DNA of 58,228 bases from Candidatus Omnitrophota bacterium (GTDB taxonomy: Bacteria > Omnitrophota > Gorgyraeia > Zapsychrales > JANLHA01), in the NCBI GenBank assembly GCA_029560465.1, contig JAKQKX010000065.1, positions 69,148 to 127,375 on the forward strand, written 5' to 3'. Positions 18,733 to 49,943 of the stretch are shown here, one piece after another (within the stretch, counting starts at the first letter, position 1; each line of letters opens with the position of its first letter). Under the pieces are notes generated by a model. That model saw only the letters and a program-made list of their open reading frames with translations. It made no database searches and had not been told where the DNA came from. Position numbers and translations under genes: made by a program.

Positions 18733-20655
18733 ATGAAATCATCCGACCATCCTCTTGTAGACTCCCTGGAAATCCTCCATTCTTTTTTTTTAGCGGTCTT
18801 TATCCCCTTTATCCTTGAAATTCCGGTCATAAGCCTTTTTTTCAGCGCACAATCTTTACAATTCCTGCTCCCGTTTATTTTTCTAATTTTATTACCCGTA
18901 AAAATCGCCGTATACGCCGGGATATACGGCGGCCTGGCTGTTTTGGCATCACAAAAAGAATATATTCTCACTGGCCCGCTGTTTCGGGTTCAAGTCAAGA
19001 AATTCTGGGGCCCCTACGCAGCCCTGCAATCTTTTCTGTTCCTCATTCAATTCCTCTCCTTCATACTCCTTCCCTCTCTGGATTACACCTATTGGAACAT
19101 CTTTCTGGAGCCCGTTGGCGTCATGGCCCTCTGCGTCTTTATCCTCAAGCGGGATTACTTTACCGAAAAACAGCCGTCCCTTCTCAGGGTACAGGTTCCT
19201 ATCCGTTCCGCCCTGTGGCTGCTGATCCTTGTCGCCATGCAGATATCCTGTCAATTATTATTGAAACAGTGGCATCTCAAGCCCCCGATGCCGGCCGTGT
19301 TCCTTTCTCTGGCATCAAAATATATTCATGCCCTGATGATCATATTTTTCTATTCCCTCATTTTCCAAGCAAGCTCCTACCGCGACCAGCACCCCCAACC
19401 CAAAAAAGAACTCTTGCTTATTAATCCCTTGGGGGGCGGGTCCATCCTCGAACTGCTGACATCTGTTATCCTGCGGTTTTATCCTCCGGTATTTGTCGTC
19501 CTCTCGGCCCTGACCCCGCCGGATTATACCGTCCGGAGTTTCTCGAGAGTTTTCTGGCGCTCCCGTTATGTCCGTTCCGGGCGTCTGGTGGCTATCACCT
19601 GTTTCACAAGCAACTGCTTTGAAGCGTACAAGATCGCCAAAGAATTCCGGGCCGCCGGCTCCACTGTCATCATGGGGGGCCCGCATGTTTCCTTTATCCC
19701 TCAGGAGGCCCTGGAATTCTGTGACAGCGTCGTGATCGGCGAAGTAGAAGGCATCTGGCGGGAGATCGTTGCCGACCATGAAAATAACCGCCTCCAGAAA
19801 ATTTATCAAAGCCGCCCTGCGGATAAAACGGTCCACGAAGAAATTTATAAAAAACTCCTCACGGCCCCTCCGGAAATCATCCATAATTATCTGGAAGCCA
19901 CCCACGGGTGCAAATTCCGCTGCTCTTTTTGTTGCGTGTCTGCGCTCTGCCAGGGCCAGGTGGGGCACAAGACCGTGGAACAGGTGATCGCCCTGATCAA
20001 AAGACTCCAGGCCAAATATAAGGTGATTACTTTTATTGACAACAACATTTATTCTGACCCCGCGTATGCCAAACAGCTTTTTACGGCCATAAAGCCCCTC
20101 AAGATTAAATGGATCGCAAACTGCAGCATTGATATCGCCGCCAATGAGCCCGTTTTAAAACTCGCCAGGGAAAGCGGATGCCAGGCGCTGCTGGTCGGAT
20201 ATGAAATCAGCAATTATTCACTCGAAAAAGCGCAGGGCGAAAAATTCGCCCTGGCTGAAAGGTATGTGGAATTGACAAGAAGGATCCATAAAACAGGGAT
20301 CCGCGTGGAAGGGCACTTCATTATCGGCTTCGACTCTGACCGGCCGCAAGATCTCTTGAAATACTGGCGCTGCTGTTTCCGAATTTTCCCGCACTGGACC
20401 AGCCTGTCTGTGCTAACGCCACTGCCGGGCACCAGGCTCTACCGGGAACTCCTTGAGGAAGAACGTATCCTGAACCTGAACTGGAGGAACTACTCTTGTT
20501 ACTGGCCCGTGTTCCAGGCCAAGCATTTTTCTCATACACTCTTAAGCTGGCTGCACCCGGTCCTGTTTTTCATTTTTCTTTTCACGACCTGCCGGGCGGG
20601 GATGTTCCTTCTCCTTATCCTGGTGGCCACGGTCCTGGGAAGCAGGGTTTTCTAA
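18733..20655 (+). CDS. Membrane-embedded B12-binding radical SAM protein (module copy 1)
   Basis: 640 residues. The first ~215 residues hold about six hydrophobic helices. Residues 230-350 are a B12-binding-like Rossmann domain (SGRLVAITCFTSNCFEAYK, then STVIMGGPHVSFIPQEAL, VVIGEVEGIW). The radical SAM core follows, with C393-X3-C397-X2-C400 in THGCKFRCSFCC and FIDNNIYSD and GHFIIGFDSD downstream. The last ~50 residues return to the membrane (LLSWLHPVLFFIFLF). Such enzymes methylate or rearrange unactivated carbons; membrane anchoring points to a lipid or membrane-bound substrate. The gene converges on a small membrane protein whose stop overlaps it by four bases. A close paralogue with the same partner is at 44894-46846. 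Confidence 0.88.
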   Translation: MKSSDHPLVDSLEILHSFFLAVFIPFILEIPVISLFFSAQSLQFLLPFIFLILLPVKIAVYAGIYGGLAVLASQKEYILTGPLFRVQVKKFWGPYAALQSFLFLIQFLSFILLPSLDYTYWNIFLEPVGVMALCVFILKRDYFTEKQPSLLRVQVPIRSALWLLILVAMQISCQLLLKQWHLKPPMPAVFLSLASKYIHALMIIFFYSLIFQASSYRDQHPQPKKELLLINPLGGGSILELLTSVILRFYPPVFVVLSALTPPDYTVRSFSRVFWRSRYVRSGRLVAITCFTSNCFEAYKIAKEFRAAGSTVIMGGPHVSFIPQEALEFCDSVVIGEVEGIWREIVADHENNRLQKIYQSRPADKTVHEEIYKKLLTAPPEIIHNYLEATHGCKFRCSFCCVSALCQGQVGHKTVEQVIALIKRLQAKYKVITFIDNNIYSDPAYAKQLFTAIKPLKIKWIANCSIDIAANEPVLKLARESGCQALLVGYEISNYSLEKAQGEKFALAERYVELTRRIHKTGIRVEGHFIIGFDSDRPQDLLKYWRCCFRIFPHWTSLSVLTPLPGTRLYRELLEEERILNLNWRNYSCYWPVFQAKHFSHTLLSWLHPVLFFIFLFTTCRAGMFLLLILVATVLGSRVF

Positions 20656-21281
20656 GCTATCCCGTGCATCGACGGGAGCCGCTGGTGTCTTTTTCGGATC
20701 CCCTCATACACAACCGCCGTGTTCAGCCCGTACTTGCAGGAAAAATAAACCAGGCAGAAAACCAGCAAACTACGGGCGACATCGGGCCAAGGCAATAAAT
20801 AGCCGACTAGAAATAATTTGCGAAGAAAATTATCCGACATGGATATCGCATCCACAAAGGAGAAGACTCCGTAACGGCGGGATAACTGCTCGGATATCTG
20901 AAAAAGGCTCATCGTCCTAAAATCTCCCGGAGAAAATTGGTACCGGAGCAACGCGGAAGACAAAAAAACTAAACGCTTTTTTTGGACGCTGCCAATATAT
21001 TGAAACGCCAAAAACATTAAGAAACTCACCGCATAGAGAAAAAAACTCCCCCGCACCCAGGCGACAGCGGAAAAAACAACGGCCACAAGGAAGACCGAAT
21101 CGGCCAACCGGGTCCAATTCCGGTAGGCCGCATATTGCCCCGCGTGGATGGCCAGGTCGCCGCCAAAAACCTTCTGCATCCCGGTTGACCTGATAAAATA
21201 ATGGAACCAGCGTCCCGCATAAAAATCGTAACGGATCGATTTCTGCAGGGTTTCAAGACTGCTGATGGGTTCTAAAGACAT
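20652..21281 (-). CDS. Small multi-span membrane partner protein (module copy 1)
   Basis: 209 residues, no recognised family. The N-terminal part starts SLETLQKSIRYDFYAGRWFH. There are two hydrophobic helices at about 63-95 (LADSVFLVAVVFSAVAW, FFLYAVSFLMFLAFQYI) and one or two at 155-185 (FLVGYLLPWPDVARSLLVFC). Between them is an amphipathic stretch YQFSPGDFRTMSLFQISEQL. The protein at 46874-47473 is homologous: it has LRSSILVDKYVSRWF at the same place and FPPDVLAKTTLYQIGEIYGE in the middle. Both genes lie tail-to-tail with membrane radical SAM genes. The conserved pairing suggests a shared pathway or complex. Function unknown. Confidence 0.75.
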   Translation of the reverse strand: MSLEPISSLETLQKSIRYDFYAGRWFHYFIRSTGMQKVFGGDLAIHAGQYAAYRNWTRLADSVFLVAVVFSAVAWVRGSFFLYAVSFLMFLAFQYIGSVQKKRLVFLSSALLRYQFSPGDFRTMSLFQISEQLSRRYGVFSFVDAISMSDNFLRKLFLVGYLLPWPDVARSLLVFCLVYFSCKYGLNTAVVYEGIRKRHQRLPSMHGIA

Positions 21282-30144: not shown

Positions 30145-33100
30145 TTAAGATTCCAGACCAGTCAAAAGCAGAAGGTCAACCGGGACAACATAAAAGATAA
30201 CAGGAAAAAAGCCGTCCACCTGTATATCCATCAAAGGTTGTTGCGGCAGAGGAAGCGGAAGGCCGTGTTCGTCACGCCGGATTTTAAGATTCATCAATTC
30301 CGCGTTAAGATTAATACCCCCGAGATCCTGCGAAAGATCAGAGGAACCCTGCCGAGTGGCATCCGAGGACAAAGTATCTGTTACCGTGGGCCCCGAGGTT
30401 CCCAGCGGAGATGACGCATTCTTTATTTGTCCGGCAGACAGAATTTTCATATAGGCGGCCAAGGGCAACGCCACACTCCAAGCCTGGGCATCCGTGCCCC
30501 GAGGCCGATGGGGATAATTCCCGTCGCGCACTTCGGAAATGCTTCCCACCCCGGCTTGCTTAAGATGCTCATCCAGAGGAGCGAAATACGGCAAAACATG
30601 GCGGATGCTCTCCGGCGAAAAATTGTACGCGGTGACGTATGCCAAAGCCCAGTCTCCAAAAAGATGCGGCCATACCGTCCCGTTATGATAGGCCTGTTTA
30701 CGGCCATTGTCGTCACTGCCTTCATACGTGCCGCGGTAGGGGAACTCCTCGCTGGACTGGGTGTCTTCCGAGAGCGTGCGTAGCCCTGTTGGGACCAGCA
30801 ATTTTTCTGCGACGATCTCCACGACCTTTTGCCGGCGTTCCGTGGATAAAAGCCCATACGCGGAAAGCACCGCGATCAATTGATTGGGCCGGATAGACAG
30901 GTCCTGCCGTCCGGCTTGCGCGCTCACTCCCTGTCCAGCGACCACAGTGTCCGCGAGATAGCCACTTTTTTCATTCCAAAAATACATATTGAAACTTTCT
31001 TCCACCCGTGCTGCCAGCCGGGCATAAGTCTCGGCCTTGGGTAAATCATTGTCCCTTCTGGCGAGCTCGGCAAGCCAACTTAAAACATCAAACCATCGGG
31101 CGTTGTTCTCAACCGTGTAGCCTTCCCGGGGCGTGGCCGCCGGATAATTGGTATCCATCCAAGTAAAGTGCGGCGGGGAATAAATCAGCCCTGATTCGGC
31201 ATCCATGCGGATTCCGTTTTTCGTGCCTTCCTGGTACCCTTCTGCGATGGATTCGATGATCGCCCTCACGGTCCGATCCCCGGTTTTCGTTTCCAAAATG
31301 CCAGTGTCCCCTGTGCTTTGAATGTAATTCCGGACAGCCAGCACATACAATAACGGCGCGTCCACCGTATCCCAGTTGCCGGCTTCCGCTCCCGTGATGA
31401 TATTGGGCAACATTCCTTTATTCCCGTCTTTCCCCTCGAACTTGCCGAACGCCAGGATTAACCCCCGGGCCACGTCGTTCATGCCCGCGGCTAAAATTCC
31501 GTCAAACGCGATGAATGTATCCCGGCCCCAGTCCGAGAACCACGGATGCCCGGCGATGACGGTATAAAATTCATCCCTCTCAACAATAAACTCCCACATG
31601 GCCAGGACCAGTTTCTGCACAAAGGGATCGGCCTGCGCCATTTTATTTTGGATCAAGGCCAAGCGTTCTTTGATCAGCGCCGTGGTGTCCTGAACCAGGG
31701 CCGTGACATTTTGTTCCTCGTACGCCCTGGCCGGAGTGTTGGTGTCCTCACTTGAGAGAACCAAACTGGTGCTGTCCCCAGCTTTTAATATGGCGGAAAA
31801 GAATCCCGGGCTGTAACTGTCACTATAATTTTGCTGTCCCCGCTCGGCTTCCAGAGGATTTTCACTATAATGGCGTTCGGGGGATTCCTGATACCGGCCG
31901 CGGGTGATCGTCATCCGCACGCCGGCAAAACCCGGATACCATTGACTCCAGGCTTCATCAATGGAGCGCAGCTCAAACCCAACGGATTGGCCGGCCTGGT
32001 CCGCCATAACACGGTGTTTCCCGTGCCACCAGCCCAGACTTTCCGGCGTGATCGCGGTGGTTTCATGATGGGAGCGCTGGTCCATATCGGGGCGGACGAA
32101 TAACTCTGCCGCATCAACGCCGCGGGTCATGGAAACGATGCGGTATTGAAACGCGAAGGTGTTTTCACCCTGTTTAATGACGGCGGTCTTTTCTATGACA
32201 ATCTGTTCAGGTCCTTTCTTTATAATATAGGTCCAGGCGGGCAACGGATAGCGCTCAAAATGCTGAAAGGTGGTGGTATCCAAGGGGAACAATTGCTCGC
32301 TTCCGTCGCCAAATCGAACGCGCACGTCATCCACCGTGCCCCGGAAAACAACCCGTTTGGTCTCATCCGGGGTTCCCCGTTTCATGAGATTCACCAGGAA
32401 GCCGTCATATTTACTCACATAGCCGCCCACGCGGATGCCGCCGTCATGCTGGTCACGATTTAACGGACGGACCGGCAGTCTCAGAATTGTGCCGATTCCG
32501 TTCGACAGCGTAACCGTGTTATGCGGGTACGTGTCTAAATCGTCCTTATTCAAACGAATGGATAATCCGGATTCCCGCCTGGGCAAGGACTCCGGCAGCA
32601 CTTTAAAATGATAGAAACGGATTCCCTGTTCGCCTTCCCACCCGTCGTTCTCTGTTTTTGCCGGCCACCGAAACGTCAGCGCGTAATCCCCCGCGGGCAA
32701 GCCTGATAATTCAATCTGATAAACTCCGCCTGCGGCTTTACGTTGGGAAAGGATCATGTGCCGGCGGCCTGTGTTCTCATCAACAAGGTGCGCTTCAAAA
32801 AGGGCCTCGTTCTCAATCAACAGAACGTCTCCCGGGGACACCATCAACGCCTTGTTTTTATTCTCCGTCCAGTTCCATTCCTGAATCACGGGAGAGGAAA
32901 CCTGCTCCGGTCTCTGCACAGATTCCAGCTTCAAGACCACCAACTGCCCGGGAGCGAGGGGACAGGTCAGTTTCCCTTGTTCCACCCGGACTTCTTCCTC
33001 TGGATTAAGGGCATCCCGGAATACCGCCACATCCTCTGCGGCGATTCCGAATCCCGATAATTGAGAAACAGGCAATTCCATGGTTTGGGCCTCTTTATAA

Positions 33101-36100
33101 AAATTTCCAATAATTAATAATTTGTTATCCTGAAACACTTTGGCTACAGACACCATGTTCTTGGGACTATTATTAGAAAGCACCACCATTTCCGAGCGGC
33201 TGACCGCCGGGTTCTCCTCCCTGAGCGGGATGAAACGTTTGACCCAGGCCGATAAATCGACCCGCCCCAGCGCCGAAGTGCCCCATGCCGACCCAATGAC
33301 CGATTCCCCTTTCTCATCCCGGAACTCCCTTTTGATGGGAGCCTGTGTCGCAAATTCCCCAAGGCTGAGCAAAACGGTTTCCAATCTCGGGCCGAGCATT
33401 AAAAGCCCCAGAAAAATCGGCCCGGCCAGGTTTAAGATGCTTTCCTGTGCAGCCCGGTCATCCGGGCGCGTCATTTTAAGCCCCGTAACGTCTTCAAACA
33501 TGCGGAAATATTCTTCCGCCCAACGGGCGCTGTCATGCGTGTCGACAACGGTAACCGCCAGCCCTCTGGAAATCCAAGCAAGGTCAGACAGAAATGCCTC
33601 CAAATTTTTCCCCTTTAGGTCCAGAATAAAGGCGTTCTGTAAGAAACCTAACCTTTGAAAATGATAATACGCGTGGGCGTCCCCGCCTAGCTGTTCGGCC
33701 ATAAGGAACAAATCATTGGCTTTAAAATAACGGGCGAATTCCTCCCACAGGTGCGTGCCCCAAATTAACCTGGCGGCGCTGTCTTTGGATGAACCCCGGC
33801 CGTACATGTGAAATGCGTCAATCCTCCAGCCATGGATCTGGGTGCGGCGGTCCAGGAACACCTTGTTGAAAAGATTGTTCCAATATTCAAACGGGAGGAT
33901 CCTCGGATCTTTCTCCCCGTTCTGCACGCGCTGATCGATCGCGCGTTCATCCCAGGCCGCCAAATCCCGCACCTTTTTATTCCCCATAAAACCCGGATTA
34001 TCAATGTTGTCCCCATCATGAGCGAAGTTATCCGGCTCATACCGGGCCTCGACGCCAACGATAGAACGAAAAAATGGCAAATCCCCGACCACATGATTCC
34101 CCTGTTCCTGCTGGGATTTTAAAAGGGCGTAGAGCTGTTCCAGATTAACAAACTGCTCATAAATTAAATACTCTGAAATTTCTTCTGAATTAAGATACGC
34201 GAAGTCTGAATAATTCACCCCGTAGACAGTCACATCCCGGCGGTTTTGAATCCTGTCCCGGATCAAATCAGCGTATTGCTGAATCGGGAGGTTATCGTGC
34301 CGGAACCGCTCAAACGCTTCCCGGCGGGCTTGAGAGGCATTCTGTTGAAAATCGCGGAATTTCTCAAAAGGATGCTCGCCCCGGTCTTCCACCGCCTGCC
34401 AATCGATCAGACGCGGAGAAAGGGCGTAAACCGACACCGGGGCAAACGGGCTTTCCGCCTGGGTCGGGAAAAACGGCGATATCATAAAAAAATTCTTTCC
34501 GGTCTCTTCAGCGGTCTGCTTAAGATAAGCATTCAGCCCGGTCCAATTCACAGGAAAATTCCGCAACTTTACGTCATCCTGAAAAATATACATCGGGTGC
34601 GTCTGAGCCTTTTCAAGCCATGTGGGCAAAAGATCCACCTGGACGGTTGTGTTCTCCCCTGATACCCAAACAGGCTGGTCCTGCTGACGTGTCCGGGCGT
34701 TGACTTTAAAAGCGTATGTCCCGGTCCGGGTGGGGACAATTTCCACCTTAGCGTTAAAAACATTGGGAATGATCCGGCCGGATTTGTCTGTCGCCGGGGT
34801 AATCTTTTCGGGAGGCACCACGACGTCCCGCCAGGGGATGGTCCCCTCGTCCGGCCTTATAAAGTCCCCTGCCTCTTCGGTAAACAACTCGGTATGAAGC
34901 GTAACAATCAGGTCATTGATATCCAACGGCACTTGCGTCTTTTGAATCCGAACGCGCACGTCCACCTCCAGAGGCGCGTTCAAATCGGCAGTGACATATC
35001 CGCCAGCCAACGGGGTCGCTTCCACCGCTTCGACAATGGGGGACGAGGCGTTTTCTGCCAGCCAGACGTTTAATAAATCCTGATCAGCCCCGGCCAGGAC
35101 CAGGCCGACAGCCACCTTCTGGTTTTGGCCCAAAGGCGACGCAAAGGCCTCCCGGACACGATCGGGCTGCTGTTGAATCGGCCCGGACAACACCGATAAA
35201 TTTTTCTCCGTGATGGCGCTGGAACGCACATCAATACCGCCGGAGAAATATTTCCTGGGAACGTTCTTGCGCTCGACCTGATCGTAATCTTCCTTAATAT
35301 AATTGAAGACGCCTTTTTTGAACGCTTCAATATATTGATTATAGATTTTTTGTTTAAGCTCTTTGTCCTCGACATCCACGCCTTTTGTTTTCGCCTGATC
35401 AACATAGACCTGCCCTAAAAGCGAGGCTTTCAGCGTCTTTTTATACCAAGTAGCCAGGATCATGGCGCTGAAAATCTGCCGGAGTTTCGCGAAATTCTTC
35501 CCGTGGTTCACTTCTCTCTCTATCTCCGGGATCAGCACCTCCCGCACAATCTCGGCTGTCGTGTCCTGCAGGATCACCGCGTCTTCTTCGCGAATGTTCT
35601 CCATGCCCAGCTGTTTGTTTTCAAGATGGCTTTTGAAAACTTTATAATCCTCTTCCAGCAGCACTTTCAGATGCTGCGTGACGATAAACGCGTTTTCACC
35701 TTTTTCATAGACTTCCGCCTGATCCGGGAGTATCCACACCTTATTAAAGGTGTTAACCGGGACGTTTATGTGCCCGTAGAGGGCATAGACTTTTTTATAA
35801 ATCCTTGCCCAGAAATCCCGGCCCAGGTCATTCTCAGGATAAATCATCGACGCCGTCAATTGTTTTAAAAGGTAATCTTGGGCCAGCATGTCGACTCCCA
35901 AACCGGTGGAGCCGAGATTCTCCGGGATGACCCGGTCTTTTTCCTCCGGGGACAAATTGACCCACATGTCTTCTTCCGGGGTCGTTAAAGAGGCCAGGAA
36001 ATACGAGATTAAAAGCCGTGATTCAGCCTTGAACGCTTCACCCTCCAGCCCGGAATTCCCGGTGTTCATGATGAAATCAAATTTAAAAGGGTCTTCCGGA

Positions 36101-36309
36101 TAGATCGTGATGCCTTTGATCGTCATCGGGGTATATTCTGAGGTGGGAAGGACCATCGTGCCCGGAGAGGGCAACGCGACACTGGCTCTAAGCATCTCCT
36201 GTGCAGACACCGGACAAACACCACAGAAGGATGTCAGCAAGAAAATAAACGCCAGGTTGAGCGTAAAAAATCCTCGAAATAATTTGATATTTTTATGAAG
36301 AATAAACAT
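30145..36309 (-). CDS. Giant secreted glucanotransferase / glycogen-debranching protein with clade-type terminal domains
   Basis: 2054 residues. A signal peptide (about 1-36, ending PVSAQ) precedes a ~340-residue N-terminal domain (LLKQLTASMIYPENDLGRDF; VPVNTFNKVWILPD) that I recall from Omnitrophota proteins. Next come an Ig-like/DUF3416-like region (about 450-590) and a GH13-type barrel (about 600-1090). The barrel has GWRIDAFHMYG (nucleophile Asp ~829), FLMAEQLGGD (acid Glu ~871) and VVDTHDSAR. After a linker with CBM-like strands there is an amylo-alpha-1,6-glucosidase-like domain (about 1300-1990; HPWFSDWGRDTF at ~1583, GTVWPHLFG at ~1873). The tail GGINLNAELMNLKIRRDEHG ends the protein. 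It probably cuts and transfers alpha-glucans outside the cytoplasm. A strong promoter precedes it. Confidence 0.85.
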   Translation of the reverse strand: MFILHKNIKLFRGFFTLNLAFIFLLTSFCGVCPVSAQEMLRASVALPSPGTMVLPTSEYTPMTIKGITIYPEDPFKFDFIMNTGNSGLEGEAFKAESRLLISYFLASLTTPEEDMWVNLSPEEKDRVIPENLGSTGLGVDMLAQDYLLKQLTASMIYPENDLGRDFWARIYKKVYALYGHINVPVNTFNKVWILPDQAEVYEKGENAFIVTQHLKVLLEEDYKVFKSHLENKQLGMENIREEDAVILQDTTAEIVREVLIPEIEREVNHGKNFAKLRQIFSAMILATWYKKTLKASLLGQVYVDQAKTKGVDVEDKELKQKIYNQYIEAFKKGVFNYIKEDYDQVERKNVPRKYFSGGIDVRSSAITEKNLSVLSGPIQQQPDRVREAFASPLGQNQKVAVGLVLAGADQDLLNVWLAENASSPIVEAVEATPLAGGYVTADLNAPLEVDVRVRIQKTQVPLDINDLIVTLHTELFTEEAGDFIRPDEGTIPWRDVVVPPEKITPATDKSGRIIPNVFNAKVEIVPTRTGTYAFKVNARTRQQDQPVWVSGENTTVQVDLLPTWLEKAQTHPMYIFQDDVKLRNFPVNWTGLNAYLKQTAEETGKNFFMISPFFPTQAESPFAPVSVYALSPRLIDWQAVEDRGEHPFEKFRDFQQNASQARREAFERFRHDNLPIQQYADLIRDRIQNRRDVTVYGVNYSDFAYLNSEEISEYLIYEQFVNLEQLYALLKSQQEQGNHVVGDLPFFRSIVGVEARYEPDNFAHDGDNIDNPGFMGNKKVRDLAAWDERAIDQRVQNGEKDPRILPFEYWNNLFNKVFLDRRTQIHGWRIDAFHMYGRGSSKDSAARLIWGTHLWEEFARYFKANDLFLMAEQLGGDAHAYYHFQRLGFLQNAFILDLKGKNLEAFLSDLAWISRGLAVTVVDTHDSARWAEEYFRMFEDVTGLKMTRPDDRAAQESILNLAGPIFLGLLMLGPRLETVLLSLGEFATQAPIKREFRDEKGESVIGSAWGTSALGRVDLSAWVKRFIPLREENPAVSRSEMVVLSNNSPKNMVSVAKVFQDNKLLIIGNFYKEAQTMELPVSQLSGFGIAAEDVAVFRDALNPEEEVRVEQGKLTCPLAPGQLVVLKLESVQRPEQVSSPVIQEWNWTENKNKALMVSPGDVLLIENEALFEAHLVDENTGRRHMILSQRKAAGGVYQIELSGLPAGDYALTFRWPAKTENDGWEGEQGIRFYHFKVLPESLPRRESGLSIRLNKDDLDTYPHNTVTLSNGIGTILRLPVRPLNRDQHDGGIRVGGYVSKYDGFLVNLMKRGTPDETKRVVFRGTVDDVRVRFGDGSEQLFPLDTTTFQHFERYPLPAWTYIIKKGPEQIVIEKTAVIKQGENTFAFQYRIVSMTRGVDAAELFVRPDMDQRSHHETTAITPESLGWWHGKHRVMADQAGQSVGFELRSIDEAWSQWYPGFAGVRMTITRGRYQESPERHYSENPLEAERGQQNYSDSYSPGFFSAILKAGDSTSLVLSSEDTNTPARAYEEQNVTALVQDTTALIKERLALIQNKMAQADPFVQKLVLAMWEFIVERDEFYTVIAGHPWFSDWGRDTFIAFDGILAAGMNDVARGLILAFGKFEGKDGNKGMLPNIITGAEAGNWDTVDAPLLYVLAVRNYIQSTGDTGILETKTGDRTVRAIIESIAEGYQEGTKNGIRMDAESGLIYSPPHFTWMDTNYPAATPREGYTVENNARWFDVLSWLAELARRDNDLPKAETYARLAARVEESFNMYFWNEKSGYLADTVVAGQGVSAQAGRQDLSIRPNQLIAVLSAYGLLSTERRQKVVEIVAEKLLVPTGLRTLSEDTQSSEEFPYRGTYEGSDDNGRKQAYHNGTVWPHLFGDWALAYVTAYNFSPESIRHVLPYFAPLDEHLKQAGVGSISEVRDGNYPHRPRGTDAQAWSVALPLAAYMKILSAGQIKNASSPLGTSGPTVTDTLSSDATRQGSSDLSQDLGGINLNAELMNLKIRRDEHGLPLPLPQQPLMDIQVDGFFPVIFYVVPVDLLLLTGLES

Positions 36310-41481: not shown

Positions 41482-43125
41482 ATGCGCGTCATGTTTGTCG
41501 CAATCGCTTACGAACAACTCGGCATCAGCATGCTCTCGGCCCTGGCTAAACAGCGCGGCCATGACGTGCGGCTTGCTTTCAGCGTGGCGCTCTTCAATGA
41601 CCGGAAACATACCAGCTGGAACCCGCTCCCCCGTTTCTTTGATGACACGCGCGATGTCCTGAATGATATCGAACGTTTTCACCCCGACGTACTGGCGTTT
41701 TCCCCATTATCCGGGTCTTACCGATGGTGCCTTCATATCGCCCAGAACGCCAAAGCCCTGCTCCCGAAGGTCAAAATTCTGTTTGGCGGCGTCCACACGA
41801 CAGCCGTGCCGGACCGGGTTATCGCCCGCCCCGAGGTGGATTATATCTGCCAAGGGGAAGGGGACGTGGCCTTCCTAGAAATACTGTCGGCGATCGAACA
41901 AGGGGATTTCTCCTCCCCTTTGCCCAACACGCGTTACAAAACACCGGAGGGCCGGATCATCCAAGGCCCCCAGACTGGCTTTATCCAAAATCTCGACGCC
42001 CTGCCCTTCTTCGACAAATCATTATGGGAAGACTATTTCAACATGTCCGACTATTACATCACTATGGCGTCCCGGGGGTGTCCGTTGCGTTGCACGTTCT
42101 GTTTTAACAGTTTCTTTGCCAATCTTCCAGGACAGGGGAAAGGGAAATATGTCCGCTACCGCTCTCCGGCACACATGCTGGCAGAACTGCGTTGGGCCAA
42201 AAAACGCTATCAGACAAAAATGATCGGCTTCTTTGACGACGTTTTCACTCTGGACAAGACATGGCTGAAAATATTCCTTGAGGGATACAAAAAAGATATT
42301 CACACGCCATTCCAGATTTTCACCCACGTCAATCATATGGACGAGGAAACCGTACGATGGCTCGCCGAAGCCGGCTGTGACGCGGCGGAAATCGGGATGG
42401 AAACGTTGGACGAGGAATACAAAAACAAATATCTAAAACGACACGAGTCCAAAGAAACGACCGCGGAGGTGATCCGGCTAACCCGAAAGCATCATATCCG
42501 TTCCAGGATGGACCATATGCTGGGCCTGCCTGGAGAACCCCTCGAAGCCCAGGAAACGGCCCGACAATTTTATATCGAAAATCCGCCGGCGCGGATCAAC
42601 TCATACTGGGTCAATTATTTTCCTGGCACAGAATTGCAAAAAACCGCGATTCGATTCGGAGTCATTACCGAGGCCGATGCGGAGTCTCTCAATGAAGGAT
42701 TTTCTTTTGACCTGGATTCGTATAACCGCAGTCATAAACTTTTCACACGGGAACAGCTCCGACACTGCCGGACATATCAGGTTATTTTTAAGCTCATCCC
42801 ATTTTTCCCAAAGAAAATCCTCTCCCGGCTTAACCCCGGACTCTTCAAATCCCTGCCGGCGTTTATGAGCGAAGGACTGGCGTCTATGACCGATATCTTC
42901 GGCGGGATTGCGACCGGGGAAGCGGAATTTCTTATTTACACAAAACACCTCGTCTTTCATATATACCGCACGCTGCTGGGGAAACTGGGGTTCCCAAAAC
43001 CCCGCAGAATGCGTCATCTTGCCCCCGACACGCAAGCGGTGTGCGTTCACACTGCGGACGGGTCCGGCCATAAAAACTCTTGTGATTGTCAACGGTTTTT
43101 CCGGGAAGGGCAAACAACGGGATAG
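41482..43125 (+). CDS. B12-binding radical SAM protein
   Basis: 547 residues, soluble. Residues 1-130 form the B12-binding Rossmann domain (RVMFVAIAYEQLGISMLSAL; VKILFGGVHTTAVPDRVI; DYICQGEGDVAFLEIL). The radical SAM core has Cys200-X3-Cys204-X2-Cys207 in ASRGCPLRCTFCFN, then IGFFDDVFTLDKTWLK and the MDHMLGLPGEP region. The C-terminal ~150 residues are helical (ILSRLNPGLFKSLPAFMSEG) and may bind substrate or a membrane. The start ATG 41482 has GGAG eight bases upstream. The enzyme probably does a C-methylation or ring/bond rearrangement using cobalamin and SAM. The substrate is unknown. A bidirectional hairpin follows. Confidence 0.88.
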   Translation: MRVMFVAIAYEQLGISMLSALAKQRGHDVRLAFSVALFNDRKHTSWNPLPRFFDDTRDVLNDIERFHPDVLAFSPLSGSYRWCLHIAQNAKALLPKVKILFGGVHTTAVPDRVIARPEVDYICQGEGDVAFLEILSAIEQGDFSSPLPNTRYKTPEGRIIQGPQTGFIQNLDALPFFDKSLWEDYFNMSDYYITMASRGCPLRCTFCFNSFFANLPGQGKGKYVRYRSPAHMLAELRWAKKRYQTKMIGFFDDVFTLDKTWLKIFLEGYKKDIHTPFQIFTHVNHMDEETVRWLAEAGCDAAEIGMETLDEEYKNKYLKRHESKETTAEVIRLTRKHHIRSRMDHMLGLPGEPLEAQETARQFYIENPPARINSYWVNYFPGTELQKTAIRFGVITEADAESLNEGFSFDLDSYNRSHKLFTREQLRHCRTYQVIFKLIPFFPKKILSRLNPGLFKSLPAFMSEGLASMTDIFGGIATGEAEFLIYTKHLVFHIYRTLLGKLGFPKPRRMRHLAPDTQAVCVHTADGSGHKNSCDCQRFFREGQTTG

Positions 43126-43199: not shown

Positions 43200-44006
43200 T
43201 CAGCCGCCGTATTCAGCAATCACGGAAAACAGGGCATCCTGGGTGAGGGGGCCGATAAAGGATGTCGCCCCGGCTTCTAAACATTGCGTCCGGATTTTTT
43301 CAAGCTGCGATTCTTTGACGTTCTTCTTTTTAGGATCTTCCGGTTGATTCGCATAAACCAATATTGTCAGATTTTTTAAAAACGGATAACTGCGCAATGT
43401 TTTAACGGTTTTATACGTTGGGATATCGGGCCACAGGGCATCGAGAAAAAGAATGTCCGGAGGCGCTTTTAACACTTCGTTGAGCAGTTCATCCTGATGG
43501 CCGACTGTTTTAATTGCGATTTTAGAATCCGGGGCCTGGATCAATGTGAGCAAATCCTGGATAAACTGGCTCTGCTCAACCTGTATAACAATCCGGCGGC
43601 TGATCCCTTGTTCCTTGACTGTTTCGATCGTTTTCTGAAGGCTGCTGCGTTTTAATATCCGTTCGACCGTGTCCAACAGGGCCTGTCCGTCAAAAGGTTT
43701 GGCCAAAAAATCTGAAGCGCCAAGCTCCCTAAAAGTCTGTTCGTGGTTCGCGTAAGCGCTGAACACCACGATAGGCGTATTCGCGTTCTTTTTGGATTCC
43801 CTCAATTTCTTAAAGAAATTGTAGCCGTCCAGCCCCGGCATGACAATGTCCGTAAAAATAATATCAATATCCTGAACCAGGGCGATATCAAACCCGTCCT
43901 GACCGTCGAAAGCAATAAAAGGCATATAATTCGCCCTCTCGAGCTTCCGGCTCATAAACTGCACCACATCCCTCTCGTCATCCACGACCAAAATCTTTTT
44001 TTTCAT
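43200..44006 (-). CDS. Response regulator with one intact and one degenerate receiver domain
   Basis: 268 residues. The N-terminal receiver (1-125) is intact: VVDDERD, phospho-Asp in IIFTDIVMPGLDG, SAYAN and LAKPFDG. The second half (about 140-268) keeps the alternating alpha/beta pattern but not the acidic pocket; the position of the phospho-Asp reads ILFLDALWPDIPTYK, and GPLTQ stands where KPF would be. It therefore probably works as a partner-binding domain. The gene is preceded by a c-di-GMP-I riboswitch and a hairpin, so its expression should follow c-di-GMP. ATG 44006 has GGAGGG five bases upstream. No kinase is adjacent. Confidence 0.9.
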   Translation of the reverse strand: MKKKILVVDDERDVVQFMSRKLERANYMPFIAFDGQDGFDIALVQDIDIIFTDIVMPGLDGYNFFKKLRESKKNANTPIVVFSAYANHEQTFRELGASDFLAKPFDGQALLDTVERILKRSSLQKTIETVKEQGISRRIVIQVEQSQFIQDLLTLIQAPDSKIAIKTVGHQDELLNEVLKAPPDILFLDALWPDIPTYKTVKTLRSYPFLKNLTILVYANQPEDPKKKNVKESQLEKIRTQCLEAGATSFIGPLTQDALFSVIAEYGG

Positions 44007-44077: not shown

Positions 44078-44164
44078 GTGATTCGGTAGCCAGGCTATCC
44101 TAACTACTATAGGATCCTTCAGCTTTGCGTCCCCATCTCGCGATGGGTTTGCCTTTTCGTCATA
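44078..44164 (-). ncRNA. Cyclic-di-GMP-I (GEMM-I) riboswitch aptamer
   Basis: The minus-strand transcript contains the fixed elements of the GEMM-I aptamer in order. These are AGGCAAACC, the stem CCATC with a GCGA (GNRA) tetraloop and GATGG, GGGACGCAAAGC (the tetraloop-receptor and ligand-facing part), a second stem GGATCC...GGATAGCC, and GGCTACCGA at the 3' side. This is the consensus of natural c-di-GMP-I sensors upstream of motility, pilus and signalling genes. It begins within a few nucleotides of the predicted transcript start and leads, via the hairpin at 44027-44058, to the twin-receiver gene. Ligand binding is predicted by consensus match. Confidence 0.92.
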
Positions 44165-44893: not shown

Positions 44894-46846
44894 ATGAAGT
44901 ATATTATCCCTATGGGAAAATATACGGGTTCTATTTTATCCAAAACATTCGACATGCTCCACTCGATCCTCCTTTGTATCGTTTTGGCATGTGTCATCAA
45001 TTCCCTTTACGTGGATCCCCCCGACTTTATTCAGGGGCTGCCGCTCCTCCAGATTATTTATATCCTGGGCTTGATCAGCCTTAAAATATATTTGTTGAGC
45101 GGTATCTATGGAAGCCTGGTTGGGGTAGCGGCTCAAGAAGAGCCGGCTGTTGACAGAAAATCTTTTTTTAAAAACGCCCGGCGATATTGGAAACTTTACT
45201 TCGTATGCCTTGCCTTTCACTTCCTGTCCAACGTCCTGCTGGCCGTCATGTTCGACCACTGGAACCTGCCCCGGAATTTTGAAAACTTTTTTTTTGATTT
45301 CCTATTGCTCTACTTTATGGGCTTCTTCCTCATTAAGGACAAATATTCGAAAACCGCTCCCTTACGGCATTCCCGCATCCTGGTCACGCCCAAACAATCC
45401 TGCGGCGTGCTCCTGTTGTTTGTTCTCAATGCTCTGATCATCAATTTGAATCATCTCCTGCCCCTTAAAGACAGCTGGTTATCCAACGAACCGGTCTTTC
45501 TTTATACATACATTCATTTTCTCACATTTACATTTTTTATCACCCTCATCCTCAACTCTTATCCGGAAATCGAACAATCTTACGACAAGCCCCGCGAAAT
45601 ATACCTTGTCAACCCTGTATCAGGAGGCATTATTCTCGGCTCATTTTTCTTCCGGTTTTACCCCCCAATCTTCGTGACACTGAAAGCCCTAACCCCTTCG
45701 GGTTATCATTTTAGAGAATTTAATAAAATCACCTGGAAAAAAAGGTTTTTTAAAAAAGGGAAGTTGGTTGCCATAACGTGCTTTACTTCGAACAGTTATG
45801 AAGCCTACAAAATCGCCAAAGAATTCCGGAGGCATGGTTCAACGGTCATCATGGGCGGGCCGCATGTCACCCACCTCCCGGATGAAGCCTTACAATTCTG
45901 CGACGCGGTGGTTATCGGTGAAGTGGAAAACGTTTGGGAAAATATTATTCTCGATTATGAGCGAGGGACGCTGAAACGTGTTTACCAGGGGGTTCCCTCC
46001 GAAGATTATTATCAAAACGTCCATGCCGCGCTATTGAAATCCCCACCGGATGTCATCGCGAACTTTCTGGAAACGACCCGGGGCTGCAAATACCACTGTC
46101 ATTTTTGTTCCATCCCCCATCTCACCAAGGGGCGTATCCGAAACAAGCCTCTCGGACAGATTGTGGAGTTAATTCAAAAAATCAACCCGCGCAAAGGACA
46201 AGTTCTCCTGTTTATTGACAACAACATTATTTCCGACCGGGAATACGCCAAGAACCTCTTTGAAGCCATGATCCCACTAAAAATAACCTGGTGCAGCCAA
46301 TGCTCCATTGATATCGCCAAGGATGAAGAATTGTTGAACTTAGCCCGCAAAAGCGGCTGCGCCCAGTTGTTGGTCGGCTACGAAATAACCAGCTATGCCG
46401 ACGCCAAAAGCAGAAAAGGTAAGCTGTCTATGGCTGATCAATACATCGCGCTCACAAAGAAAGTGAAACGCCTGGGGATATCCGTCAAAGCCCATTTTAT
46501 TATCGGGTTTGACTCCGACACATACAGAACCTTGTGGGATTTGTGGAGATTCTGCTTTCAACTCATGCCCTATGTCACGGTCGTTTCCGTGTTAACACCC
46601 TTACCGGGATCGCAACTGTTTCAGAGCATGCTAAAGGAAAACCGAATCACAAATTATAACTGGCGTTACTACGGCTTGAACAATCTGGTTTTCCGGCACC
46701 CGAAATTCGACCACACCTGTTTTCAGCTCATGTTCCCGCTGCTATTTACCCTGTACCTGGCGACCACATGCACGTTCGGGCTATTCGTTACGGCCATCAT
46801 CCTTCTTGACGCCTACTTCTTCAACCTCCGTCATTTTCTCTTTTAA
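44894..46846 (+). CDS. Membrane-embedded B12-binding radical SAM protein (module copy 2)
   Basis: 650 residues, a clear paralogue of 18733-20655 with the same layout: ~220 residues of membrane helices at the N-terminus, a B12-binding domain (LVAITCFTSNSYEAYKIAKE; STVIMGGPHVTHLPDEAL; VVIGEVENVW), a radical SAM core with Cys398-X3-Cys402-X2-Cys405 in TRGCKYHCHFCS, FIDNNIISD and AHFIIGFDSD, and a C-terminal membrane hairpin (FPLLFTLYLATTCTFGLFVT). The cytosolic domains of the two copies match nearly residue by residue in these motifs, while the membrane parts are more diverged. This suggests a common reaction on related but different substrates. ATG 44894 lacks a good ribosome site; ATG 44912 aligns with the paralogue start. 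Confidence 0.87.
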   Translation: MKYIIPMGKYTGSILSKTFDMLHSILLCIVLACVINSLYVDPPDFIQGLPLLQIIYILGLISLKIYLLSGIYGSLVGVAAQEEPAVDRKSFFKNARRYWKLYFVCLAFHFLSNVLLAVMFDHWNLPRNFENFFFDFLLLYFMGFFLIKDKYSKTAPLRHSRILVTPKQSCGVLLLFVLNALIINLNHLLPLKDSWLSNEPVFLYTYIHFLTFTFFITLILNSYPEIEQSYDKPREIYLVNPVSGGIILGSFFFRFYPPIFVTLKALTPSGYHFREFNKITWKKRFFKKGKLVAITCFTSNSYEAYKIAKEFRRHGSTVIMGGPHVTHLPDEALQFCDAVVIGEVENVWENIILDYERGTLKRVYQGVPSEDYYQNVHAALLKSPPDVIANFLETTRGCKYHCHFCSIPHLTKGRIRNKPLGQIVELIQKINPRKGQVLLFIDNNIISDREYAKNLFEAMIPLKITWCSQCSIDIAKDEELLNLARKSGCAQLLVGYEITSYADAKSRKGKLSMADQYIALTKKVKRLGISVKAHFIIGFDSDTYRTLWDLWRFCFQLMPYVTVVSVLTPLPGSQLFQSMLKENRITNYNWRYYGLNNLVFRHPKFDHTCFQLMFPLLFTLYLATTCTFGLFVTAIILLDAYFFNLRHFLF

Positions 46847-46873
46847 TAAATACTGGGCGCACCGGGTGGGCCC

Positions 46874-47473
46874 CTAGCGAAAACGCCGGTAGAAAAAAGG
46901 CTGATTCACGACAAAAGCGACCCCAAAAAAAAGCGCGAAAAAAGCGATCTGTCTGAATATAAAAACGTTGATATTAGTAATATACGCGACCCAAAAGAAA
47001 GAAAACACCAGGGCGACCCTGTAAATCCTATCCAAGTGGTATATCGTGTCAACAAGCGAGGGGATTTTGTAGGCTTCGCCGTAAATCTCGCCAATCTGAT
47101 ACAACGTAGTCTTAGCGAGAACATCCGGCGGGAAATCCTGTTCAATAAAATACAGGCTGACATCGGCGATCTGCTTCTTCTTGGCCCTTAATGTTCTAGA
47201 AAAAATGACCGCCCCGGCCAAGGCTGGCACCGCAAAAACATAATTCTTCGTCTCAAAAGCCCAAAAACACGAAACACAAATTCCGGCGGCAAGGCCCCAC
47301 AGCAGAAGTTCACGCCGCCGGATAATCCGATAAGATGACTGAAGGCCGGGAAGCCCAACGGCCCTCGCCTTAAAAGAAGGCTGCTGGATCAAAAAAAGAA
47401 ACCAACGGCTGACATATTTATCGACCAAAATCGAGCTCCTCAGCCCTTCCATGGTACAAAGCGCTACGTCCAT
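46874..47473 (-). CDS. Small multi-span membrane partner protein (module copy 2)
   Basis: 199 residues, homologous to 20652-21281. The shared parts are the N-terminal helix with SILVDKYVSRWF, a pair of hydrophobic helices (LLLWGLAAGICVSCFWAF; YVFAVPALAGAVIFS), the middle FPPDVLAKTTLYQIGEIYGE, IPSLVDTIYHL, and two C-terminal helices (VALVFSFFWVAYITNINVFI; IAFFALFFGVAFVVN). It starts at ATG 47473 with GGGAGG upstream and ends 27 bp from the convergent membrane radical SAM gene. The family is unknown to me. Its repeated pairing with a membrane radical SAM enzyme is the main clue to its role. Confidence 0.75.
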   Translation of the reverse strand: MDVALCTMEGLRSSILVDKYVSRWFLFLIQQPSFKARAVGLPGLQSSYRIIRRRELLLWGLAAGICVSCFWAFETKNYVFAVPALAGAVIFSRTLRAKKKQIADVSLYFIEQDFPPDVLAKTTLYQIGEIYGEAYKIPSLVDTIYHLDRIYRVALVFSFFWVAYITNINVFIFRQIAFFALFFGVAFVVNQPFFYRRFR

Positions 47474-47765: not shown

Positions 47766-49943
47766 ATGGATTCTAGAATTATCTCCGTGTTCAGCAATAA
47801 AGGCGGAGTCGGAAAAACTTTCTTTGCCGTTAACCTGGCTACCGCCCTCTCCGTATCCGGAAGGAGGGTTCTTCTTTTGGATTTTGACATCCAGGCAGGT
47901 GACGAGATGCCACGGATGCTCGGAGTTTCCCCCCAACAATCCCTTGTTCAGCTTTTCAAAGAGCACCAGGACCCCAGCTCTCTCAGCATTAATGCCATCA
48001 GAAAGTTTGTGACTTCGCACTCGTCCGGGCTTGATTTCCTGCCGGCAATTCTCACGACACAGGAAATCAGCGCCCTCACAGCCAAAGACCTCAAGCCATT
48101 CTTTAAGATGGCCTCTCAAATTTACGATTACGTCATTATTGACTTGGGCCAGTCCTTCAGCGAAACCATGCTCGGCGTTTTGGATCAGTCGAGTTTAATC
48201 CTGCTTTTGGCCACCCCGGACATTTTGGCCGTTTACCAGTTGCGCTGGTGCATCAAAATTCTGGAAGACATGCACTTCCCTCTGAAAATGGTCAAGCTGG
48301 TCTTAAACCGGTCTGAAAGCCAGGGGGGCGTCGCCTGGCAGGAAGTGAGAGACGCGGTGGACATCGATATCATCGGCCGCATTCCTTCCGACGGAATTGG
48401 CGTCGGCAAAGCGCTGGAGCACGGGATTCCCTCCGTGATTGACAGCCCCAAAAGCCCCGTTGCGGACGCGTTCCGGAAAATTATCAATGAATTAAAAAAA
48501 TCGGATTTATACCTTCAGACAACAGAGACTGAACGGAGCCATGTCCCAACGGACAAATTTGAGGAGCCCCATGAATTTTGGGACCAATTCAGCGCTGAGA
48601 AGAAAACAAACGAGGCAGAAACCCAGGAAGCCATCGCCCTGAAAGAGCTGTTGGCGCTTAAACGGAGGATCCAGCACCGCCTTATCTCCAAGTTAAACCT
48701 CGAATCCCTGACTCCCGAGCATTTCACCGACCCTGTGAAAGCCCAAGAACTAAAAGAGGCAGGGAAAAAGATCGTCAGTTCCCTGCTGTTGGAAGAAAAA
48801 GGGGCGTTCATTTCTTCCCATGAGGAACGGTCAAAAATCGTTAACGACATTGTCAACGAAACGTTCGGCTTAGGCGTTCTAGAAGTGGTTATGGAAGACC
48901 CCGGCGTATCAGATATTATGGTCAACAGCTGTAGTGAAATTTATATCGAGAAAGAAGGCCGGCTCCTGCTGACCGATCATCGGTTCGTATCAGACCAGCA
49001 ATTAAGGGCGATTATAAACCGCATTATCGCTCCTCTGGGCCGCCGCATCGACGAGTCCAACCCAATGGTGGATGCCCGTCTCCCGGACGGTTCCCGTTTT
49101 AACGCGATTATTCCCCCGCTGTGTTTAACAGGGGCGGCCGTCACGATCAGAAAATTCGGCGCGGAAAAACTGTCCGTTGACGATATCGTCAAAAAATTCA
49201 ACAGCTTATCCGTCCCGATCCGCGACTTCCTGTACGCGTGCGTTCTCGGCCGCATGAACGTCATCATTTCCGGCGGGACAGGCTCGGGGAAAACGACACT
49301 CCTAAACGTCCTGTCAGAGTTTATACCCGACGGGGAGCGCATTATCACCATTGAAGACGCCGCGGAATTGCAGTTAAAGAAAGAACACTGGTGCCGCCTG
49401 GAATCCCGGCCGGCCAACGTGGAGGGCGTCGGGGAAGTGACGTTGCGGGATTTATTTGTGAACACCCTCCGTATGCGCCCGGACCGGATCGTGATCGGGG
49501 AATGCCGCGGCCCGGAAGTCCTGGACATGCTGCAGGCGATGAATACCGGCCACGACGGATCTATGACCACCCTTCACGCGAACTCGACACGGGATGTCTT
49601 AATCAGGATGAGTTCCATGATCCTGTTAAGCGGAATTGAACTGCCCATGCGGGCTATCAACGAAATGATGTCATCCGCCATCAATGTTGTCGTCCATATG
49701 GCCCGATTCACGGATGGCTCCCGGAAAATCACCGGCGTCACTGAAATCGCCGGGATAGACTCCGAGCACGAATTAATCCTCAAGGACATCTTTCGCTTCA
49801 GGCAAACGGGACGGGACCCGGCCGGAAAAGTTCTCGGTGTTTATGAAAACTGCAACTATGTCCCCAAGTGTGCGGAAGAGATCATCACCAAGGGGATCAA
49901 ACTGGACAAAAACATTTTCCTTGCCACCCCGGGAGCGGCATAA
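47766..49943 (+). CDS. Fused MinD/ParA-like (TadZ-like) and CpaF/TadA-type secretion ATPase, copy 1
   Basis: 725 residues in two parts. Residues 1-240 are a ParA/MinD-type ATPase with deviant Walker A NKGGVGKT (11-18), LLLDFDIQAGDEM and YVIIDLGQS. This is similar to TadZ/CpaE, which places Tad pilus machines. After a charged linker, residues 330-725 are a CpaF/TadA motor: DARLPDGSRFNAIIPP, Walker A SGGTGSGKTT (~502-510), ITIEDAAEL, Walker B RPDRIVIGECRG, and MTTLHAN. TadA ATPases power pilus assembly or type II/IV-like secretion. In known systems these are separate proteins, so the fusion is unusual. A second, homologous fusion follows 15 bp downstream. No TadB/TadC, pilin or peptidase gene is in the window. 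Confidence 0.9.
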   Translation: MDSRIISVFSNKGGVGKTFFAVNLATALSVSGRRVLLLDFDIQAGDEMPRMLGVSPQQSLVQLFKEHQDPSSLSINAIRKFVTSHSSGLDFLPAILTTQEISALTAKDLKPFFKMASQIYDYVIIDLGQSFSETMLGVLDQSSLILLLATPDILAVYQLRWCIKILEDMHFPLKMVKLVLNRSESQGGVAWQEVRDAVDIDIIGRIPSDGIGVGKALEHGIPSVIDSPKSPVADAFRKIINELKKSDLYLQTTETERSHVPTDKFEEPHEFWDQFSAEKKTNEAETQEAIALKELLALKRRIQHRLISKLNLESLTPEHFTDPVKAQELKEAGKKIVSSLLLEEKGAFISSHEERSKIVNDIVNETFGLGVLEVVMEDPGVSDIMVNSCSEIYIEKEGRLLLTDHRFVSDQQLRAIINRIIAPLGRRIDESNPMVDARLPDGSRFNAIIPPLCLTGAAVTIRKFGAEKLSVDDIVKKFNSLSVPIRDFLYACVLGRMNVIISGGTGSGKTTLLNVLSEFIPDGERIITIEDAAELQLKKEHWCRLESRPANVEGVGEVTLRDLFVNTLRMRPDRIVIGECRGPEVLDMLQAMNTGHDGSMTTLHANSTRDVLIRMSSMILLSGIELPMRAINEMMSSAINVVVHMARFTDGSRKITGVTEIAGIDSEHELILKDIFRFRQTGRDPAGKVLGVYENCNYVPKCAEEIITKGIKLDKNIFLATPGAA

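Follow-up and report, generated by a model that had tools for sequence, protein, structure and literature searches.

The window analysed here, a stretch of 58,228 nucleotides from Candidatus Omnitrophota bacterium (contig JAKQKX010000065.1), holds two copies of a two-gene module in which a B12-type radical SAM enzyme with membrane helices faces a gene for a smaller membrane protein, here called the partner (Table 1). In pair 1 the reading frames overlap tail-to-tail at CTAA, in which TAA is the end of the plus-strand gene and TAG the end of the minus-strand gene; the coordinates, the opposed orientation and the four-base overlap had all been given in the original prediction, made from the letters of the window, and were confirmed in the sequence. 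In pair 2 there is no overlap, and 27 bases separate the enzyme stop from the partner. Aligned from end to end, the two enzymes share 41% identity, and the two partners are 26% identical (E=3e-7). In copy 1 the Radical_SAM and B12-binding matches both exceed the Pfam gathering scores, and in copy 2 the B12-binding match (31.5 bits) falls slightly under the gathering score of 32.1.

Table 1. Features of the two enzyme-partner pairs (positions in the window; residue numbers refer to the copy 1 enzyme).
Feature	Position	Strand	Basis
Membrane B12-type radical SAM enzyme, copy 1, 640 aa	18733..20655	+	ORF; Pfam Radical_SAM 1.2e-12, B12-binding 2.2e-8
Six-helix N-terminal membrane domain, residues ~1-214, no Pfam family	18733..19374	+	Family hydropathy, positive-inside rule
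Cobalamin-type Rossmann domain, residues ~225-355, motif MGGPHVSF	19405..19797	+	Pfam B12-binding 284-344; fold matches
Radical SAM core, residues ~385-575	19885..20457	+	Pfam PF04055 389-540
CxxxCxxC [4Fe-4S] motif, C393, C397, C400	19909..19932	+	Invariant in 39 aligned members
Two short C-terminal hydrophobic helices	20524..20643	+	Hydropathy peak 618-638; AlphaFold model of fusion
Partner membrane protein, copy 1, 209 aa, four membrane helices	20652..21281	-	ORF; AlphaFold
Four-base stop-codon overlap CTAA	20652..20655	.	Sequence
Membrane B12-type radical SAM enzyme, copy 2, 650 aa	44894..46846	+	ORF; Radical_SAM 1.2e-13
CxxxCxxC motif, copy 2	46085..46108	+	Sequence and alignment
Partner membrane protein, copy 2, 199 aa	46874..47473	-	ORF; homologous to partner 1

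The recurrence of the pair, which had been noted as a second copy at 44894-47473, is real but extends beyond the two pairs then recognised: the host genome (2.77 Mb in 103 contigs) encodes five membrane enzymes and four partners, and each of the four partners lies tail-to-tail with an enzyme. On contig C2 of the host, two further enzymes in tandem have one common partner, again with a four-base overlap. A degenerate partner fragment of 60 residues with a stop codon (L213, G000:C68:129624-129803, plus strand; E 3e-9) has no enzyme nearby and is probably what is left of a pair that has been lost.

By motif, domains and fold, the large protein belongs to the B12-binding radical SAM superfamily. 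A Pfam scan found PF04055 in 39 of 39 members of the enzyme family and PF02310 in all 39 at E≤0.05. An MGGPH-type motif is conserved across the 39 aligned members, and the radical SAM barrel carries GCK(F/Y)xCxFC plus an NxNW motif in the family alignment. The N-terminal membrane domain, for which no recurrent Pfam family was found in the 39 members scanned, shows hydropathy peaks at residues ~27, 60, 103-113, 129, 168 and 202 in the average of the 39 enzymes. At the C-terminus the same average gives one long peak at 618-638, which the AlphaFold model of a natural fusion protein (see below) splits into two helices. Six helices before the B12 domain and about two after the core had been proposed at the outset, and hydropathy and AlphaFold bear this out, the last two helices being short; the transmembrane character of the N-terminal region, set beforehand as a test, is likewise seen in the hydropathy peaks and in the positive-inside counts. 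Lysine and arginine number 2.4, 3.9 and 5.2 per loop on the side assigned to the inside, versus 0.4, 0.3 and 1.1 outside. With an internal N terminus the positively charged loops would be the cytosolic ones; the enzyme is accordingly predicted to have a cytosolic N terminus and a cytosolic catalytic head.

The partner is predicted, from positive-inside counts and AlphaFold, to have four membrane helices arranged as two hairpins with both termini inside. An invariant Asp and Trp lie near its N terminus, and a conserved segment, TLYQ-x2-E ... IPSLVD, is placed in the cytosol between the hairpins. Its AlphaFold model (mean pLDDT 91.5, pTM 0.84) has no fold match in the PDB (best E 1.7), and no recurrent Pfam match was found over 34 members, nor any family in NCBIfam (one chance match at E=0.32), PADLOC, PHROGs or the PDB sequences. 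Derivation by duplication of the membrane domain within the enzyme was ruled out (hhalign probability 0.5%). The partner represents a new protein family whose fold is modelled with confidence, and together with the enzyme's membrane domain it defines a new variant within the B12-binding radical SAM superfamily. The earlier statement that no recognised family was matched stands for the partner and for the membrane domain, but not for the catalytic head, which has its Pfam matches.

Enzyme and partner occur together with great regularity. Among 111 related genomes, the 23 that encode a full membrane enzyme are the same 23 that encode the partner (E below 1e-6), and four more give nothing beyond weak fragments (E 3e-4 to 5e-3). 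Of 384 genomes drawn evenly from the phylum, 19 have the partner; all 19 have the membrane enzyme as well, and the partner is absent from genomes with soluble relatives alone. The genomes surveyed are metagenome-assembled, with some short contigs. In 36 cases out of 41 distinct partners the gene converges on an enzyme gene, L080 included, which is flanked by enzymes on both sides and converges on one; two are co-directional (L076, L077), two are fused to the enzyme (L075/L130) and one is cut by a contig end. The fusions are single open reading frames of 847 and 865 aa with the partner at the enzyme N terminus; one of them lies at L130:2541-5081. Tandem enzymes with one partner are found on G045:C27 (three enzymes) as well as on the host contig described above. 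Three membrane enzymes lack an adjacent partner (L111/L215, L112/L216, L135/L214), and each of their genomes has one elsewhere. Partner homologues, whose scattering without a link to the radical SAM gene had been set beforehand as a refuting result, were never found away from the membrane enzyme, save for the one degenerate 60-residue remnant.

The two proteins have also diverged together. Distances in the enzyme and partner trees are correlated with a Mantel r=0.77, where the maximum over 2000 permutations was 0.33. When partners were swapped within genomes, the mean r was 0.62 and the observed value was reached in 0.02% of shuffles; because re-pairing within a genome lowers the correlation, the match between the trees goes beyond host phylogeny. 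An AlphaFold model of a natural fusion, built on an alignment that was unpaired except for the two natural fusions, has a pLDDT of 82.6 and a pTM of 0.83. As the enzyme part makes up 642/847=0.76 of the chain length, a pTM of this size suggests that the partner, too, is placed with some confidence. Enzyme and partner very probably form a two-subunit membrane complex, and this physical association is the best-supported step of our interpretation because of the obligate pairing, the fusions, the co-divergence and the fusion model. The core of the original prediction, that a B12-type radical SAM protein sits in the membrane and has a membrane partner of its own, is thereby supported by domains, topology and co-occurrence.

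Among the best 80 loci of a pattern scan, the membrane form is found only in Omnitrophota; one contig is labelled Elusimicrobia in its record (L121), and a genome search placed the same contig (G041) in the host's order. The nearest soluble relatives among these 80 loci come from Omnitrophota and one Woesearchaeota contig (42% identity, L134). They retain the C-terminal hydrophobic stretch, and soluble relatives outside Omnitrophota have no partner. In Clostridia, Planctomycetes, Gastranaerophilales and others, soluble relatives of the head stand in tandem, two to five in a row (L151-L172). No member of the membrane enzyme family was found in viral sequences, and an origin in phage or defence systems was rejected, the enzyme giving generic radical-SAM matches alone in PADLOC and PHROGs. 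No description of the enzyme-partner pair was found in the open-access literature.

The genes around the pair are highly variable. The 103 proteins that flank membrane enzymes match 131 Pfam families, the commonest of which was seen three times, and neither a conserved neighbour gene nor a pointer to a lipid pathway was found among them. The gene directly upstream differs from locus to locus, often with a gap of 0-8 bases, and encodes for example ThiF-like, Methyltransf_30 or laccase-like proteins or response regulators. As the flanking genes are not conserved, the pair behaves like a module complete in itself.

Work on B12 radical SAM enzymes has mostly dealt with soluble proteins, and to our knowledge the solved class B enzymes are all soluble single proteins. 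The class B enzymes MgmA, TsrM, TokK and CysS share with the present family a Rossmann domain followed by a CxxxCxxC barrel (fold E 1.9e-7 to 4e-4); the Omnitrophota form differs in its six N-terminal and two C-terminal membrane helices and its dedicated membrane partner. By sequence, the best curated neighbours of the catalytic head in NCBIfam include lipid enzymes of the HpnJ, HpnR and ladderane type, all far below their cut-offs and represented by models that have neither a membrane domain nor a partner. The two copies score 72.3 and 82.2 bits against HpnJ (TIGR03471; equivalog cut-off 577.6), 48 and 64 bits against the ladderane-type model (TIGR04072; cut-off 360) and far below the 650-bit cut-off of HpnR, and by model cut-off neither is a member of BchE. 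At 1e-10, HpnJ and MJ_1487 each match 39 of 39 members, PhpK 38 and AprD4 three. The radical SAM diol dehydratase AprD4 is the top PDB match by both sequence and fold, at ~14% identity, and is soluble; against its family model (NF033070; cut-off 500) the copies score 23.1 and 31.5 bits.

Other membrane-associated systems bear a more distant likeness. HgcA belongs to the corrinoid proteins and is not known to be a radical SAM enzyme. The mercury methylation complex HgcA-HgcB is membrane-associated and handles a methyl-corrinoid (PMC11588087), a likeness to the pair that was drawn by description only. Tes and Mss apply radical SAM chemistry to membrane lipids, whereas a B12 domain and membrane helices belong to the enzyme of the pair. 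Mss homologues have been reported in some Omnitrophota and Woesearchaeia MAGs (PMC11868695), and a model of Mss superposes on Tes (PMC13274423). Membership in Tes/Mss was ruled out by the score against the Tes model (NF045702), which is 13.2 bits for copy 1 against a cut-off of 450. None of the 111 genomes holds a protein above this cut-off; proteins at 206-292 bits occur in six of them (G002, G029, G040, G045, G097, G084), four of which carry the pair.

Fold, topology, obligate pairing, co-divergence and natural fusion are the supported steps from which a mechanism can be proposed. The two genes would encode subunits of one inner-membrane enzyme, in which the large subunit is seated in the membrane by its six helices, exposes the Rossmann domain and barrel on the cytosolic face and is capped by the short C-terminal membrane hairpin, and the small subunit packs against it. 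Cobalamin and a [4Fe-4S] cluster would bind in the cytosolic head, to which the membrane helices and the partner may present a membrane-resident substrate. Radical chemistry would then alter an unactivated carbon, most likely by C-methylation via methylcobalamin, or otherwise remodel a lipid or polyprenyl; divergent copies within one genome may act on different substrates or positions. The architecture of the enzyme makes a membrane-resident substrate probable, whereas C-methylation or remodelling of a lipid or isoprenoid in particular falls somewhat short of an even chance; we favour this guess over others since lipid-acting enzymes (HpnJ, ladderane) are among the best curated neighbours of the head. 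Taken as a whole, a two-subunit membrane B12/radical-SAM enzyme with a membrane-resident substrate, most plausibly a lipid or polyprenyl that is C-methylated or remodelled, is our best explanation, and we regard the chances for and against it as evenly balanced. Methylation, cross-linking or other remodelling of a lipid or membrane-bound isoprenoid had already been suggested in the original prediction, and its hopanoid version is contradicted: squalene-hopene cyclase (PF13249) occurs in two of the 111 genomes, neither of them pair-bearing, which makes a hopanoid substrate unlikely, and the 103 flanking proteins offer no lipid-pathway neighbours.

The nature of the substrate and of the chemistry leaves room for two other readings of the same architecture. 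The complex could act on a membrane protein or exported peptide, such as a pilin or an envelope protein, rather than on a lipid, since proteins or peptides are the targets of many B12 radical SAM enzymes (MgmA, RiPP enzymes) and MgmA, a protein methylase, is structurally as close to the head as the lipid-acting neighbours, with AprD4 closest of all. Copy 2 in the window adjoins two ParA-T2SSE fusion genes, a PilT-like gene precedes the enzyme at one locus (L087) and some soluble relatives adjoin secretin or RcpC genes; however, T2SSE occurs in just three of the 103 neighbouring proteins, two of them the window's own, and no conserved gene for a small substrate accompanies the pair, so that we consider a protein substrate a minority prospect. 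Slightly less likely still is a B12 fold that is non-functional, as reported for AprD4, and a cobalamin-independent radical reaction (dehydration, oxidation or C-C coupling) on a membrane substrate. AprD4 is a B12-fold enzyme that works without cobalamin, and because it is the best structural match, the use of cobalamin is not guaranteed; the B12-binding scores, too, lie near the cut-off (34.4 and 31.5 versus 32.1). Against this, the AprD4 family model scores poorly across the 39 members and the MGGPH-type motif is conserved in the family.

The relationship between the two proteins has also been read in other ways. Strict pairing and conserved polar residues would fit a partner that is the substrate of the enzyme rather than its subunit, but the tandem enzymes that have one common partner (G045:C27, G000:C2) and the two fusions into a single chain make this improbable, and co-divergence would be expected under either reading. 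That the convergent pair is a frozen neighbourhood without functional interaction is more improbable again: genes that converge are not transcribed together and the arrangement has for the most part been inherited, yet adjacency persists in several arrangements, fusion included, the co-occurrence of 23 in 23 is joined by co-divergence within genomes, and the surrounding genes are completely shuffled.

If the preferred reading of a two-subunit membrane enzyme holds, a membrane-built form with an obligate membrane subunit would show that B12 radical SAM chemistry is feasible at the bilayer. In its broadest and more speculative version, which we put forward tentatively, the family would be a new class of cobalamin radical SAM enzymes, confined to Omnitrophota, whose two integral-membrane subunits edit bilayer lipids or polyprenyls in place and whose several divergent copies per genome lead to undescribed lipids. 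The preferred reading would also make the pair a specific genetic entry point to the membrane chemistry of Omnitrophota, a phylum with few cultured members, and the natural fusions offer a single-chain version fit for expression and structure work.

Several further features of the window and the host genome may be recorded. No cobalamin riboswitch was found in the window, and there is one in the host genome. A c-di-GMP-I-GGC riboswitch (44081-44162, minus strand; 60.3 bits, gathering 59) lies just upstream of a response-regulator gene (43200-44006, minus strand). Adjoining pair 2, two genes on the plus strand (47766-49943 and 49959-52142) encode fusions of a ParA/MinD-like ATPase with a T2SSE-type (TadA/CpaF-like) secretion ATPase; a link of the family to pili was dropped, since no more than a few loci show it. 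A soluble B12-binding radical SAM protein of a different type (41482-43125, plus strand; 547 aa) is encoded ~1.8 kb from enzyme copy 2, and a 2054-aa protein (30145-36309, minus strand) combines a 4-alpha-glucanotransferase-like region with glycogen debranching enzyme domains. Elsewhere in the host genome, roughly a dozen radical SAM genes that belong to other types, of which several are distantly Tes-like, lie at about 27-100 kb of contig C14 (G000:C14).
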